A DNA stretch of 47,636 nt. It comes from a virus. A program made the position numbers and the translations under genes. The stretch spans positions 1-47,636 of the IMG/VR virus record IMGVR_UViG_3300038708_000015; one strand, given 5' to 3'. Of this stretch, positions 7,947 through 27,020 are shown one piece after another; position 1 is the first letter of the stretch, and every line of letters starts with the position of its first letter. The notes beneath the pieces are model-generated. The model made no database searches. It worked only from the letters and a program-made list of their open reading frames with translations, and was not told the DNA's origin.

Positions 7947-8690
7947 CTAAAAACGAACGACAGCGGAAACGACACGACCCTCGATAGAATTATTCAAAAG
8001 GTCTGATATTTTACGACCCTTCATTTCAATGCGGTGAACAACGCCGGTTTTATTGCTAAACGTAACAACGTCCTCAAAAGGATCGATATTGAAGTCAAAG
8101 AATAAGTGAGCACCGGAACCAGGCAGCTTAACCAATGCTATATCACCAGACTCAGGAACCTTGTTCTCGACGATAGCTAGGTCGCGTCGGTTCAAGCGGT
8201 CTATTTCAGAGTTACCCACTGGGCAAGCAAACAAACGCCTAGGATCTTCAACATGCGAAATAAAATAACGAGGTACATATACCTGCTCGGGATAGCCTGA
8301 ATATTTTACTATATTGTCGATGCCAACCAATGACGTAGATATTTGCTCGAAGTCGTCAAAGTCTTTTGCATTATCAAGTACCGCAAATAACTCCTCCTCA
8401 CTTTTCGCGGCCGGCTTAAATGAGTCGCCGTCTAGCCATTCCTGAGAGACTTTTAAAACCTTTCGTAGTTTTCTAAGGTTTTCACCCTGGGGCCGCGCAC
8501 CAGCAAACCATCTGTTTACTGTAGACTTTGCCGCACCAGTAGCGCGAACAATATCAGCCTGTTTTAAACCAAGCTCTCTCGCTCGAGTCGTAACACGCCG
8601 TGCAAATTCTTCATTCAAAGCATCATCATTATTCACCAAAGGGCACCCCTTAGTAGTTCCATTCGGAACGAACATTAAACCTTGATGCAT
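7947..8690 (-). CDS. cI: Prophage CI-type repressor with degenerate S24 domain
   Basis: This 247-aa protein has an XRE helix-turn-helix (about residues 28-80: ELGLKQADIVRATGAAKSTVNRWFAG is the recognition region) and a C-terminal half that keeps the outline of an S24 domain (DLAIVENKVPESGDIALVKLPG; end IEGRVVSAVVRF). The canonical Ser-Met motif is replaced by GNSEID, I see no lysine at the general-base position (HLFFDFN), and no Ala-Gly cleavage site. It may thus resist RecA-stimulated autocleavage. ATG 8690 follows an AGAGG site 7 nt upstream. It is divergent from cro and should bind the 16-bp operators at 7577-7618, 8761-8797 and 20092-20162. Confidence 0.88.
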   Translation of the reverse strand: MHQGLMFVPNGTTKGCPLVNNDDALNEEFARRVTTRARELGLKQADIVRATGAAKSTVNRWFAGARPQGENLRKLRKVLKVSQEWLDGDSFKPAAKSEEELFAVLDNAKDFDDFEQISTSLVGIDNIVKYSGYPEQVYVPRYFISHVEDPRRLFACPVGNSEIDRLNRRDLAIVENKVPESGDIALVKLPGSGAHLFFDFNIDPFEDVVTFSNKTGVVHRIEMKGRKISDLLNNSIEGRVVSAVVRF

Positions 8691-9003: not shown

Positions 9004-9393
9004 ATGAGGAAGCACCTAACAGAAAGCAAAAAAAGCGCAAACAATTATGCGCTTATATTTAACGCCATACACGCAGTAGGCGTTTCAAGTAGCGGTGAAG
9101 CCATAGGCAGAGATGCCAGCTTTATCACAAGGCTAAAGGCAAACGATAAAAAGATATCGTTAGACGAGTTTGTAACCCTCCTAGGTACCTGGAACCTAGA
9201 ACTCACAGACGGTGACGCAGATAAGGTCTCAATAGACAGGATCTTATTTAAAGCCCTCTCCGAGTTATCACACAAACAAATAAACAACGCGACGACACCT
9301 GCAGAAGAAAAGACCGTGCTACCAAGACAAACCTACGAGGCCCTTCTCGTATTTGCGCGCATAGGCGTAGCCACACTAGGCAAAACACTATGA
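9004..9393 (+). CDS. cII: CII-like transcriptional activator
   Basis: This 129-aa protein sits right after cro. Residues about 12-65 (ANNYALIFNAIHAVG, GEAIGRDASFITRL, then LDEFVTLLGTWNLEL) follow the CII family: a helix-turn-helix that senses copy of the -35 flanks, then a stretch on the helical tetramer interface. In lambda, CII turns on cI establishment and int. It overlaps the next gene by 4 bp. It is longer than lambda CII, with a C-terminal tail of unclear role. Confidence 0.75.
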   Translation: MRKHLTESKKSANNYALIFNAIHAVGVSSSGEAIGRDASFITRLKANDKKISLDEFVTLLGTWNLELTDGDADKVSIDRILFKALSELSHKQINNATTPAEEKTVLPRQTYEALLVFARIGVATLGKTL

Positions 9394-24616: not shown

Positions 24617-24640
24617 AAGGCCTCAAACGAGGCCTTTTTT
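24617..24640. terminator. Terminator between convergent lipoprotein and arm-domain genes
   Basis: AAGGCCTC (24617-24624) pairs with GAGGCCTT (24629-24636) around a 4-nt loop, with T to 24640 for the rightward gene. On the minus strand the stem is followed by a weaker T-rich stretch, so it may stop both convergent transcripts. The leftward gene's stop codon (24639-24641) lies within the T tract. Confidence 0.8.
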
Positions 24641-24923
24641 ATTTCATCCATTCTGCTTTGCGAGTTCGCCTCGGGTCGCCTCCTTTCGCTACGACGGTCC
24701 TGTATTTGATCACTTCTTCTCTGGCTGTAGACAGACTCATTTCTGGGTACCTGCCTATCGTCATCTTAATGCGACTACCGTCCTTTAATTGTGGCCGGTA
24801 TATAAAACTGATCACACCATTTCTTAGCCGTGCCTCGAGTCCTCCCCCATCAGATTTCGTTTTCTCTTTATCGAATATTTTGCCTTTATTCGCTCGTAGC
24901 CATGTGTCAGTTAATCTTCTCAT
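24639..24923 (-). CDS. Free-standing integrase arm-DNA-binding domain protein (94 aa)
   Basis: The protein reproduces the first domain of the integrase: residues 4-87 match integrase 6-89 at 83 of 84 positions, ending TIGRYPEMSLSTAR and GGDPRRT, then a private tail RKAEWMK and a stop. Its own start MRRLTDTWL differs. At DNA level 1063-1314 and the complement of 24663-24914 differ at 13 of 252 bases, 12 of them synonymous; the one change is Trp28 to Gly. Start ATGA overlaps the KilA-N gene stop, so it is translationally coupled. Arm-site competition with Int, altering integration or excision, is the inferred role; a recombination remnant is the alternative. Confidence 0.8.
   Translation of the reverse strand: MRRLTDTWLRANKGKIFDKEKTKSDGGGLEARLRNGVISFIYRPQLKDGSRIKMTIGRYPEMSLSTAREEVIKYRTVVAKGGDPRRTRKAEWMK
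24663..24914. repeat. Inverted copy of the int 5' segment (1063-1314)
   Basis: A 252-bp segment inverted relative to 1063-1314 and 94.8% identical by hand alignment (13 substitutions, no indels). The identity ends at the codon after the arm domain on one side and just after the start codon on the other, so the copied unit equals a protein domain. Homologous recombination between the two could invert the 23-kb segment between them. Confidence 0.9.
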
Positions 24924-25660
24924 TCATCACATCCTAACAACTTTTTATTGGAAGGAGATTTAAATGCGTCGAATAATGCACTCAATCCTTGCCCTGTAAT
25001 ATTCGTGTCAGGTTGGATATTATTTTGATCGTCAGGCCCAACTAACCGCAACTGAAGAATTCCTTCATCGATTTTTTGTTGACTCGGCATTAAATCACTC
25101 CCTATCCACTCAAGAGACACTAAAACTGACTGAAGCTTGGAAGCGCTAGTATTTAATAATTTTGCGGCTGTACTAAGCCCTACTGAGCCTTCTGATATTC
25201 TCAATGCGTGCGCAAACTCGACAGCTTCACTGTTTACAGCGATGAGACTTTTTAGTCTTATATTTTCCTCTTCAGCTTCCATAGCGATCTTCAGGATCTC
25301 ATGCCTAGAAAGCGTCTTAACTTTCGACTCTTGTAGCTTCCCTGAGCGATAATCAAGAAACACCTGGTTAACCTTTAACTGGAAAGCGGGGCTAATCCAA
25401 CCGGCATAGCTTATCGCCAGTAGTTCGTGGGCGTAAGTGCCAGGGGAAGATCCGCCTCTAACTGAATTGATTGCATTCTGACCTAAGCGGGAATTCACAC
25501 TTAGCTCTTTTACGAGATCCTTTGATTGCTTTGTTCTAATCCACTCGCTCGGCTTTTTGTGTGACTCACCACCACTTGCCCTATGCAGCGCATTGAGATT
25601 AAAACGGCCCTGATCATCGGTGTTTACGGGCACACCAGCCACTACGGGTAAATTGTTCAT
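24920..25660 (-). CDS. KilA-N domain antirepressor
   Basis: The 246-aa protein has a KilA-N DNA-binding domain in the first 115 residues (RFNLNALHRASGGESHKKPS, SVRGGSSPGTYAHELLAISY, WISPAFQLKVNQVFLDY) and a C-terminal ANT-like HTH (SEGSVGLSTAAKLLNTSASK, LQSVLVSLEWIG). Such proteins overturn phage immunity by binding repressors. It is the second gene of the leftward C4-controlled operon; ATG 25660 follows AGGAGG. Its stop overlaps the arm-domain gene start. Low-level expression is expected in the lysogen. Confidence 0.85.
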   Translation of the reverse strand: MNNLPVVAGVPVNTDDQGRFNLNALHRASGGESHKKPSEWIRTKQSKDLVKELSVNSRLGQNAINSVRGGSSPGTYAHELLAISYAGWISPAFQLKVNQVFLDYRSGKLQESKVKTLSRHEILKIAMEAEEENIRLKSLIAVNSEAVEFAHALRISEGSVGLSTAAKLLNTSASKLQSVLVSLEWIGSDLMPSQQKIDEGILQLRLVGPDDQNNIQPDTNITGQGLSALFDAFKSPSNKKLLGCDE

Positions 25661-25669
25661 GTGAGCCTC

Positions 25670-25981
25670 CTAGTGAACGTCGCCAGACAATACCAGGCCA
25701 ACCGTCATCAAACGGTTGATGCATACATCCGTCAACTCAAGCAGAGCGTCGAGCTGTAGCCGATATTCTTCGGCGGTGTCGAGGAGGTCAAATACACCTT
25801 CGGGATCTTTAGCAAATTGTGAGTGAAGTTCATTGCCGGACAGGGTGAGCAGTTGCAAGGTCGCAATGCGATTAGCTTTATGCTCACTGGCCGTCATTTC
25901 GCGGCGATACAGGTCGTTAAGGGTGATTTCAGGTTGGAACGAGAGAGCGCTGTCACCGCGCTTGGTGGTTGAGTTAGTCAT
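25670..25981 (-). CDS. Small protein in the icd position of a C4-type operon (103 aa)
   Basis: The 103-aa protein (MTNSTTKRGDSALSFQPEIT, later TAEEYRLQLDALLELTDVCI) is largely helical. It lies between the C4-like RNA and the antirepressor gene, where P1 has icd and Gifsy-type prophages have orf45. It has no recognised domain. Its ribosome site is AAGGAG (inside 25988-25997), part of a sequence complementary to the C4-like RNA, so its translation, and through coupling that of the next genes, should be inhibited by C4. Confidence 0.65.
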   Translation of the reverse strand: MTNSTTKRGDSALSFQPEITLNDLYRREMTASEHKANRIATLQLLTLSGNELHSQFAKDPEGVFDLLDTAEEYRLQLDALLELTDVCINRLMTVGLVLSGDVH

Positions 25982-26010
25982 TTCTGACTCCTTGTAGATT
26001 TAAGTTAATT

Positions 26011-26110
26011 TGCCACTTAGTAGGTGGCGGGTCTCAACTAAAGCTCTACAAGAAGCTCCGGGCCTATTCCCCTTGCGGGTTTTGTATTACGCCTCTAAAC
26101 CCGCCATTGA
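26011..26110 (-). ncRNA. C4-like antisense RNA upstream of the antirepressor
   Basis: On the minus strand, ACCCGCAAGGGGAATAGGCC and GTTGAGACCCGCCA are typical of the C4 antisense RNA family (P1/P7 c4, widespread before phage antirepressor genes). Hairpins are GCGGGTTT/AAACCCGC with a 14-nt loop (about 26074-26103) and GCCAC/GTGGC (26012-26028). The loop element CTTCTTGTAG (complement of 26046-26055) can pair with CTACAAGGAG, the Shine-Dalgarno region of the next gene (25988-25997): 9 Watson-Crick pairs plus one G-U. This is the C4 mechanism: cleaved RNA blocks icd and ant translation. Family assignment is from memory and needs an Rfam search. Confidence 0.78.
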
Positions 26111-26139
26111 AACTGGCTGAGTCACTGTCGAACAGGCAC

Positions 26140-26190
26140 AAAAAAACCGCAAGGTTTTTCGGTTGCGGCTGGCCGCTTGTAGAATTTTAG
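26140..26190 (-). ncRNA. Short IsrK-like leader RNA ending at an intrinsic terminator
   Basis: Downstream of the promoter at 26198-26226 the minus-strand transcript would run about 50 nt to a terminator: CCGCAA (26168-26163) pairs with TTGCGG (26152-26147), followed by seven T (26146-26140). The RNA contains TCTACAAG (complement of 26176-26183), the same octamer that C4 can bind at the next gene. Gifsy-1 isrK lies in the same place before orf45-anrP. It is inferred that read-through yields C4 and the antirepressor operon. Confidence 0.6.
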
Positions 26191-26197
26191 TTTTTTC

Positions 26198-26226
26198 AAA
26201 ATAGTCTCTTTAAATTTACTTTGCAA
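26198..26226 (-). promoter_or_regulatory. Strong sigma70 promoter of the C4-antirepressor operon
   Basis: On the minus strand -35 TTGCAA (26221-26226), a 17-bp spacer and -10 TATTTT (26198-26203). The predicted transcription start is near 26190. The palindromes at 26248-26273 and 26286-26304 lie upstream of the -35 and could hold a regulator. Confidence 0.7.
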
Positions 26227-26247
26227 GTCGTTTTTATTCAGTGCGGC

Positions 26248-26304
26248 AAAAAGTACCGCATGAGGAACTTTTTTGCAAATATGTTTTGTTTGAGGAACAA
26301 AAAA
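26248..26304. promoter_or_regulatory. Palindromic operators upstream of the C4 operon promoter
   Basis: GTACCGCATGAGGAAC (26253-26268) lies within a longer near-palindrome whose arms are AAAAAGT (26248-26254) and ACTTTTT (26267-26273). It shares GTACCG and GAAC with the operators at cro and PL. A second palindrome follows, TTTGTT and AACAAA flanking TGAGG (26286-26302). They stand 22-80 bp upstream of the -35, so activation or partial repression by CI, Cro or another factor is possible. The binding protein is not known. Confidence 0.5.
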
Positions 26305-26355
26305 TCTCGCGCGCGTTATATATCTTCTTCTCTTTTAAATCTTTAAGTCGGATAT

Positions 26356-26644
26356 GTGTCGGTGTGTCGTGTCGGTGTTACCCTTGAAAGCCGCATTACT
26401 AAAGGGTTTAACCGTGTCGATGTGCAGTGCCGGTGTGAAAATATTGCGTGTCGGTGTCACAGCTTCCAGCCCAGTAAATACGGAGGGCGTGCCGTGTCGC
26501 TCTAAAAATAACCAAACATTAAACTCGGGTAATAAATGCTCAAAATAACGTTTATTTTAAAGACCTTGTCGCTGTGAGTGTCGGTGTTATCGATACAAGC
26601 CACGTTAATAAAGGGTTTATACGTTTCGGTGTGAGTGTCGTTGT
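26356..26644 (+). repeat. Intergenic iteron cluster GTGTCGGTGT
   Basis: Exact GTGTCGGTGT at 26356-26365, 26369-26378, 26448-26457 and 26578-26587; near copies at 26414, 26427, 26494, 26566, 26623 and 26635. The exact word also lies inverted at 9716-9725 within the initiator gene, whose other repeats (GCGACAC) are the complement of GTGTCGC. The cluster has no gene and is followed by about 300 bp of A+T-rich DNA. A larger direct repeat lies on top of it: the 30-bp spacing from GTCGGTGTTA to AAAGGGTTTA occurs at 26371-26410 and again at 26580-26619, 209 bp apart. A second initiator-binding locus or origin is inferred. Confidence 0.72.
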
Positions 26645-27020
26645 GGGTAAATCAAGTGAGAAATAAAAAAATAATTACTGCCGACCCCCACACTAAAAAC
26701 TCGCATGAAAAAACTAATAATATTGAAATATAAAGCCGGTTAAAAATCGAAAAATCACTGTAGCACGGTGATCGTAAATAGGTGATTTTGAATCAATAAA
26801 TACATGGCAAATAGCGTTCCTAACATTCTCGCGTCTATTAGAAGAAATGGCATTAATAATTTATAACCTTATGTTTTTATTAAATATTGTTCCCTTCGGT
26901 AATGAATTGTACAACTGTATGTATAAACAGTATTAAGTTGACTTTTGTGTTTGAGGTAGTAAATTTTAAACATTTATAATCTGTCACATAATTCATATTA
27001 TTTCGAATAAGGAAGTCTTA
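26645..27020. other. A+T-rich noncoding DNA after the iteron cluster
   Basis: About 375 bp without a gene, visibly A+T-rich, with an inverted pair AAAATCAC/GTGATTTT (about 26751-26793). It contains the LexA box and promoter listed separately. A+T-rich DNA next to iterons fits a DNA-unwinding element, but this has not been tested. Confidence 0.45.
26915..26965 (+). promoter_or_regulatory. LexA (SOS) box with a promoter facing 27021
   Basis: CTGTATGTATAAACAG (26915-26930) fits the gammaproteobacterial LexA box CTG-N10-CAG with good internal TA alternation. It is followed by -35 TTGACT (26938-26943), a 16-bp spacer and -10 TAAATT (26960-26965). The start would lie near 26972, giving a leader of about 50 nt before ATG 27021. 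The promoter should be shut by host LexA and opened by DNA damage. Confidence 0.7.

Follow-up and report, generated by a model that had tools for sequence, protein, structure and literature searches.

A C4-like antisense RNA of the sRNA-Xcc1 family as a candidate regulator of a phage antirepressor operon

On the minus strand of the window (the whole 47,636-nt stretch of viral DNA analysed here), an antirepressor operon follows a small structured RNA (Table 1). Its 103-aa leading ORF, which matched no Pfam domain and no PHROG family, is succeeded by a KilA-N/ANT protein that also matches the PHROG family anti-repressor Ant (7.8e-19) and by a stand-alone integrase-arm ORF whose start overlaps the antirepressor stop. 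A preliminary description of this DNA had read the order as RNA, icd position and antirepressor, as in phage P1, with an arm-domain gene added; Pfam and PHROG matches and the P1 annotation (a1, b1, C4, a2, b2, icd, ant1) bear this out. Given the stop/SD overlap between the first two genes and the stop/start overlap between the second and third, translational coupling through the operon is plausible. Near five relatives of the antirepressor protein (L250-L254), the RNA core had no close match.

The phage also carries an integrase (1048-2316), a CI-like repressor (7947-8690) and a CII-like regulator (9004-9393), along with terminase, portal, major head and tail genes, and is temperate to judge by its integrase and CI-like repressor. 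Because a protein repressor is present, an RNA-based immunity layer would be a second, additional one; such a layer, already suggested in the preliminary description, is plausible for this phage. Upstream of the operon, on the plus strand at 26366-26645, lies a cluster of diverged direct repeats on GTGTCGGTGT, in copies of 36-56 nt, which are candidates for protein-binding sites or for a replication element.

Table 1. Features of the antirepressor operon and its leader in the window.
Feature	Position	Strand	Evidence or remark
Candidate sigma-70 promoter TTGCAA-17-TATTTT, just 5' of a1b1	26198..26226	-	8/12 consensus matches, weak alone
Upstream target a1b1, CTAAA-att-CTACAAG; b1 = TCTACAAG, 26183-26176	26176..26190	-	complementarity
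Intrinsic terminator CCGCAA-N10-TTGCGG-TTTTTTT, 3' of b1	26140..26168	-	sequence
C4-like antisense RNA, sRNA-Xcc1 class	26018..26105	-	RF02221 match
Helix P1 GGCGGGUU/GACCCGCC, then ACC at 26025-26023	within 26018..26105	-	sequence
b' loop element CUUCUUGUAG of hairpin P3	26046..26055	-	complementary to b1 and b2
a' element CUUUAGUUGAG	26033..26043	-	complementary to a1; to a2 with a one-base bulge
Downstream target a2b2, AACUUAAA 26006-25999 and CUACAAGGAG 25997-25988	25988..26006	-	spans SD
103-aa ORF, icd position	25670..25981	-	stop codon overlaps SD of next gene
KilA-N + ANT antirepressor, 246 aa	24920..25660	-	Pfam KilA-N E 2.8e-22, ANT 3e-9
Stand-alone Arm-DNA-bind_3 ORF, 94 aa	24639..24923	-	PF13356 E 1.6e-18

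Rfam models found a single RNA across the whole window: a full-length match to sRNA-Xcc1 (RF02221; 26105-26018, minus strand, model positions 1-87, 59.2 bits, E 3.2e-8), which exceeds the family's gathering score of 53 bits and makes the window RNA a member. The Rfam C4 model (RF01695) gave no match in 25600-26500 even at E<=5, and neither did c4-a1b1 (RF03163) or isrK (RF01394) in the window region at the same cut-off; as controls, the C4 model detected both P1 C4 (68.8) and P4 CI (74.9), and the other two models do match in P1 and P4. We rejected membership in these three families on that absence of matches. The preliminary description had called the leader RNA C4-type: its family name gives way to RF02221, but C4-like function stands despite the missing match because of the family-wide covariation presented below. 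The window RNA has a minimum free energy of -29.7 kcal/mol (z -2.3) and is modelled as a tRNA-like molecule of ~83-88 nt. Its long acceptor-like helix P1 followed by an ACC-type 3' end is a combination that recurs in the family, and would be compatible with a 5' end made by RNase P.

The ORF that follows has a ribosome site complementary to the loop of this RNA. On the minus strand, CTTCTTGTAG (26055-26046) opposes CTACAAGGAG (25997-25988) with nine Watson-Crick pairs and one G-U, and the target spans the SD preceding the start codon (ATG at 25981) of the 103-aa ORF; coordinates, pairing and coverage of the SD are all as the preliminary description had them. Together with the a' element, whose match to a2 requires the one-base bulge, the predicted duplex of the RNA with a2b2 reaches -21.6 kcal/mol. 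Taken alone, this loop/SD match is moderately unlikely to arise by chance (p about 0.01-0.02), as dinucleotide shuffles of the leader equalled its G-U-allowed length in 13 of 1000 cases and its Watson-Crick length in 22 of 1000. By duplex energy with the window RNA, its own downstream leader ranked 25 among 141 foreign leaders, a comparison that is weak because most leaders are SD-like; we adopted near-relative and swap tests in its place. The main support for loop/SD pairing is comparative, from swaps across the family and from the nearest relative, rather than from single-locus statistics.

Absent from the preliminary description were the a' element, a second loop-complementary site upstream of the RNA (26183-26176) and the terminator that adjoins it. 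This upstream site, a1b1, offers an 8-nt Watson-Crick complement to the RNA loop and a 5-nt complement to a', with a predicted duplex energy of -21.9 to -22.1 kcal/mol. Next to it, GCGGccagCCGC (26176-26165) overlaps the 5' arm of the terminator, and from this overlap could act as an antiterminator; when the whole 59-nt leader was folded freely (-12.4 kcal/mol), an alternative stem was preferred over the terminator as drawn. Across related loci, b1 is followed by CGG in 79 of 88 and by a T-run of at least 5 in 71 of 88 (among the matches listed). Many relatives have TTGACA-type boxes at the place of the candidate promoter, with a mean score of 8.7 compared with 7.2 for shuffled sequence. A standard promoter and terminator scan found neither of these minus-strand elements, its limits being too strict (the 10-nt terminator loop exceeds the limit). 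With a small leading ORF and an antirepressor directly 3' of it (from gene order, Pfam and PHROG), a loop complementary to the ribosome site in front of that ORF and a second target upstream, the window RNA is probably of C4/CI type in function while belonging to sRNA-Xcc1 by Rfam family.

The nearest relative, IMGVR_UViG_3300009790_000108 (L248), has the same operon order, an 87% identical homologue of the 103-aa ORF, and a terminator and RNA scaffold nearly identical to those of the window; its own RF02221 score, 47.5 bits (E 3.6e-7), lies under the gathering threshold of 53. Within these near-identical flanks the loop is CGUAUGA and both b1 and b2 are UCAUACG, each differing from its window counterpart. 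Predicted duplexes between each RNA and its own sites range from -13.5 to -22.1 kcal/mol, against -5.9 to -10.2 kcal/mol when the two loci are crossed. Three separated sites have been altered together, as expected if pairing is under selection, and on these sequences the two phages should belong to different RNA-immunity groups.

To follow this pattern more widely, we collected relatives by exact search for the RNA core (at least 120 stretches from viral contigs and at least 120 from bacterial genomes), reduced the loci to distinct loops, and used RNAs and leaders swapped between loci as controls. Among the matches listed, the loop had at least 7 Watson-Crick nucleotides in common with its own downstream leader at 70% of viral and 51% of genome loci, compared with 10% after swapping, and a match of at least 7 nt to its own upstream site at 71% and 82%, compared with 9% and 14%. 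Both sites were complementary (at least 6 nt) to the same stretch of the loop in 88 of 142 distinct-loop loci, again among the matches listed, where swapped controls gave a mean of 7.4 and a maximum of 11 of 142. The a' element behaved similarly, with own matches of at least 6 nt at 84% of upstream and 59% of downstream sites versus 20% and 14% swapped (among the matches listed). Loci with a near-identical scaffold and a different loop formed 234 pairs from 100 loci, in which the own site outmatched the partner's by 174 to 34 for the downstream target and by 205 to 16 for the upstream one; these pairs are not independent of each other, and the direction is still clear. The loop and its two targets change jointly across ~140 related loci. 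For the helices, RNAalifold on a MAFFT alignment, in which the variable helix P1 was out of register, reported zero covariation; in the strand-swap test that we used instead, the P1 strands do covary in the family (own 7.66, swapped 5.94). Five viral loci (L004, L007, L019, L038 and L083) make up a GC-rich branch that shares the RNA core; there, the loop (for example GGCATGCGG in L019) matches a non-SD-like site immediately 5' of the start codon.

What computation shows directly is the structural class of the RNA, the presence and covariation of the two target sites, and the layout of the operon. Modelling transcription, RNase P processing, the sign of regulation, coupling, the effect on termination and immunity on P1 and P4, we consider it highly probable that a processed antisense RNA acts at a2b2 and a1b1 and keeps the antirepressor operon off in the lysogen. 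The ~83-88-nt RNA would be excised from the operon's own transcript, presumably by RNase P cleavage. At a2b2 it would mask the ribosome site and so block translation of the 103-aa ORF and of the coupled antirepressor in the manner of P1 C4; at a1b1 it would promote termination at the adjoining terminator in the manner of P4 CI, limiting the RNA along with the operon. The antirepressor would stay off in a lysogen, a superinfecting phage whose a/b sequences are identical would also be silenced, and relatives with other a/b sequences would constitute other RNA-immunity groups.

Regulation could instead consist of attenuation alone at the upstream a1b1 site, as in P4, the SD match being incidental since b1 and b2 are both SD-like. 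A subgroup of 29 loci built on one scaffold, mostly from Xanthomonadaceae, fits that account: its upstream matches hold at 90% of loci compared with 10% swapped, its downstream matches at just 21% compared with 6% swapped (among the matches listed). Outside the subgroup, however, downstream and upstream matches are equally frequent (73% each, against 9% and 11% swapped, among the matches listed), downstream matches reach beyond the SD, and the downstream site changes along with the loop between the window and L248; for the window phage we regard attenuation alone as unlikely. For the Xanthomonadaceae branch itself, we infer that the RNA probably acts only by attenuating its own transcript. One member of the subgroup (L126) is a symE gene locus, and symE loci with sRNA-Xcc1 have been reported for integron cassettes (PMC12444791).

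Since the RNA and its targets share one transcript, the loop and the SD could also pair in cis within one mRNA, making the leader a folded, riboswitch-like element and not the source of a processed antisense RNA. Against this, P1 C4 is produced by processing as an RNA of ~77 nt (PMC5320573), sRNA-Xcc1 appears on Northern blots as a discrete RNA of ~88-100 nt (PMC2996969), and relatives repeatedly show an ACC-type 3' end behind a long, acceptor-like P1; we hold the cis-acting leader to be very unlikely. Published target predictions favour action in trans on host targets, the role proposed for sRNA-Xcc1 in Xanthomonas and Xylella (PMC2996969, PMC12189769). The variable loop nevertheless follows its own adjacent leader sites in at least about 90 loci, which is unexpected for a loop selected on conserved host targets and renders this account highly improbable. 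Chance similarity, with no functional RNA in the window phage, draws on the moderate single-locus statistics and has a negligible probability given the Rfam E of 3e-8, the conserved operon context and the matched changes in L248.

Among 97 representative first downstream ORFs of related loci, we found the domains Bro-N (22), Phage_pRha (13), P22_AR_C (13), KilA-N (9), ORF6N (7), P22_AR_N (6) and AntA (3), with overlapping domain counts; by these assignments, first downstream ORFs with domain matches in the sRNA-Xcc1 family are mostly of antirepressor type. In one locus (L025, 2422-3753), an isrK leader and a C4 RNA occur twice within 1.4 kb, with sRNA-Xcc1 between the two rounds and an ORF6N gene downstream of both; this series of isrK, C4 and sRNA-Xcc1 ahead of antirepressor-like genes suggests stacked RNA-controlled antirepressor modules. 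The Xanthomonas hortorum genome with the symE locus (G001) holds 13 copies of RF02221, on many contigs and all above the cut-off, a dispersed multicopy RNA family in the chromosome. At L132, L138, L172, L191 and similar Xanthomonadaceae/Rhodanobacter loci, sRNA-Xcc1 precedes proteins of ~210-255 aa (MSTFD..DDLET.GYFLPE), of which the one checked (L132) had no Pfam match; loops at these loci are variable and are tracked by the upstream site only.

The last gene of the window operon is a near copy of part of the phage's own integrase. Its 94-aa product and the integrase's N-terminal arm-binding domain agree at 85 of 88 aa (97%), and the DNA of the two (24639-24923 on the minus strand and 1048-1330 on the plus strand, 23 kb apart) at 239 of 251 positions (95%); codon differences comprise 14 synonymous and 3 amino-acid changes, 2 of the latter at the boundary. 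An antirepressor operon is thereby seen to carry a near copy of an integrase arm domain. The arm gene of L248 occupies the same operon place and has diverged, with 65% identity to the window integrase. An arm-domain search of phage records listed 130 places in 129 records, nearly always one per record and mostly annotated as integrase; further relatives of the arm ORF were sought in viral contigs, and none was confirmed. The free arm domain could compete with the integrase at arm sites or aid excision, in step with antirepression.

For sRNA-Xcc1 in general, the likely targets are its own flanking leader sites. We give somewhat better than even chances to a wider reading, in which sRNA-Xcc1 would be a large undescribed branch of C4/CI-type RNAs, in phages and proteobacterial chromosomes, with many incompatible specificity groups; its mostly-Xanthomonadaceae branch, including the symE locus, would have lost the SD target and act by attenuation only, and the window RNA would in addition gate a free integrase arm domain. 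If so, antirepression and the control of integration or excision would be switched together in this phage. The flanking sites provide a widespread Rfam family that lacked an established target with a concrete, testable one, and they call into question recent work in which sRNA-Xcc1 members figure as sRNAs of virulence or of vesicles that act on host and plant. RNA immunity of the P1/P4 type is extended to a branch whose specificity is clearly diversified, such that sequence could serve to predict the immunity groups.

By score, the window RNA belongs to sRNA-Xcc1 (RF02221). That family was described as Xcc-specific and trans-acting, with many predicted targets (PMC2996969), and its Xylella homologues are discussed as virulence-linked sRNAs that travel in vesicles and have targets in host and plant (PMC12189769). 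Nothing in the literature searched, which extended to neither the Weinberg 2010 supplement nor Chen 2011, connects sRNA-Xcc1 with C4 or with the leader it lies in, and earlier recognition is possible. The IsrK-orf45-AnrP system of Gifsy-1 (RF01394) resembles the window in its terminator-bearing leader RNA, the processed STnc1160, a small ORF and a coupled antirepressor (PMC4825925), and differs in that RF01394 is unmatched in the window region and its short RNA is reported as an activator, not a repressor (PMC4825925). That such a layout is reported to act positively in trans is a warning on the assumed sign of regulation; its authors regard IsrK as a structural homologue of P4 SeqA (PMC4825925). 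P4 CI, flanked by seqA and seqC and working by termination (PMC4825925), likewise has target sites on both sides, with an intrinsic terminator separating the RNA from the upstream one, whereas it matches Rfam C4 itself and its described output is termination and not an antirepressor SD. From the C4 system of P1 and P7 (RF01695, with a1,b1 as RF03163) the window differs in matching neither model, in a P2 hairpin core of AAUACAAnACCCGnAAGGGGAAU in place of the C4 core, and in its extra integrase-arm gene; the two are alike in a three-helix RNA with a variable b' loop and an a' segment, in targets that overlap a ribosome site, and in the order a1b1, RNA, a2b2, small ORF, antirepressor.
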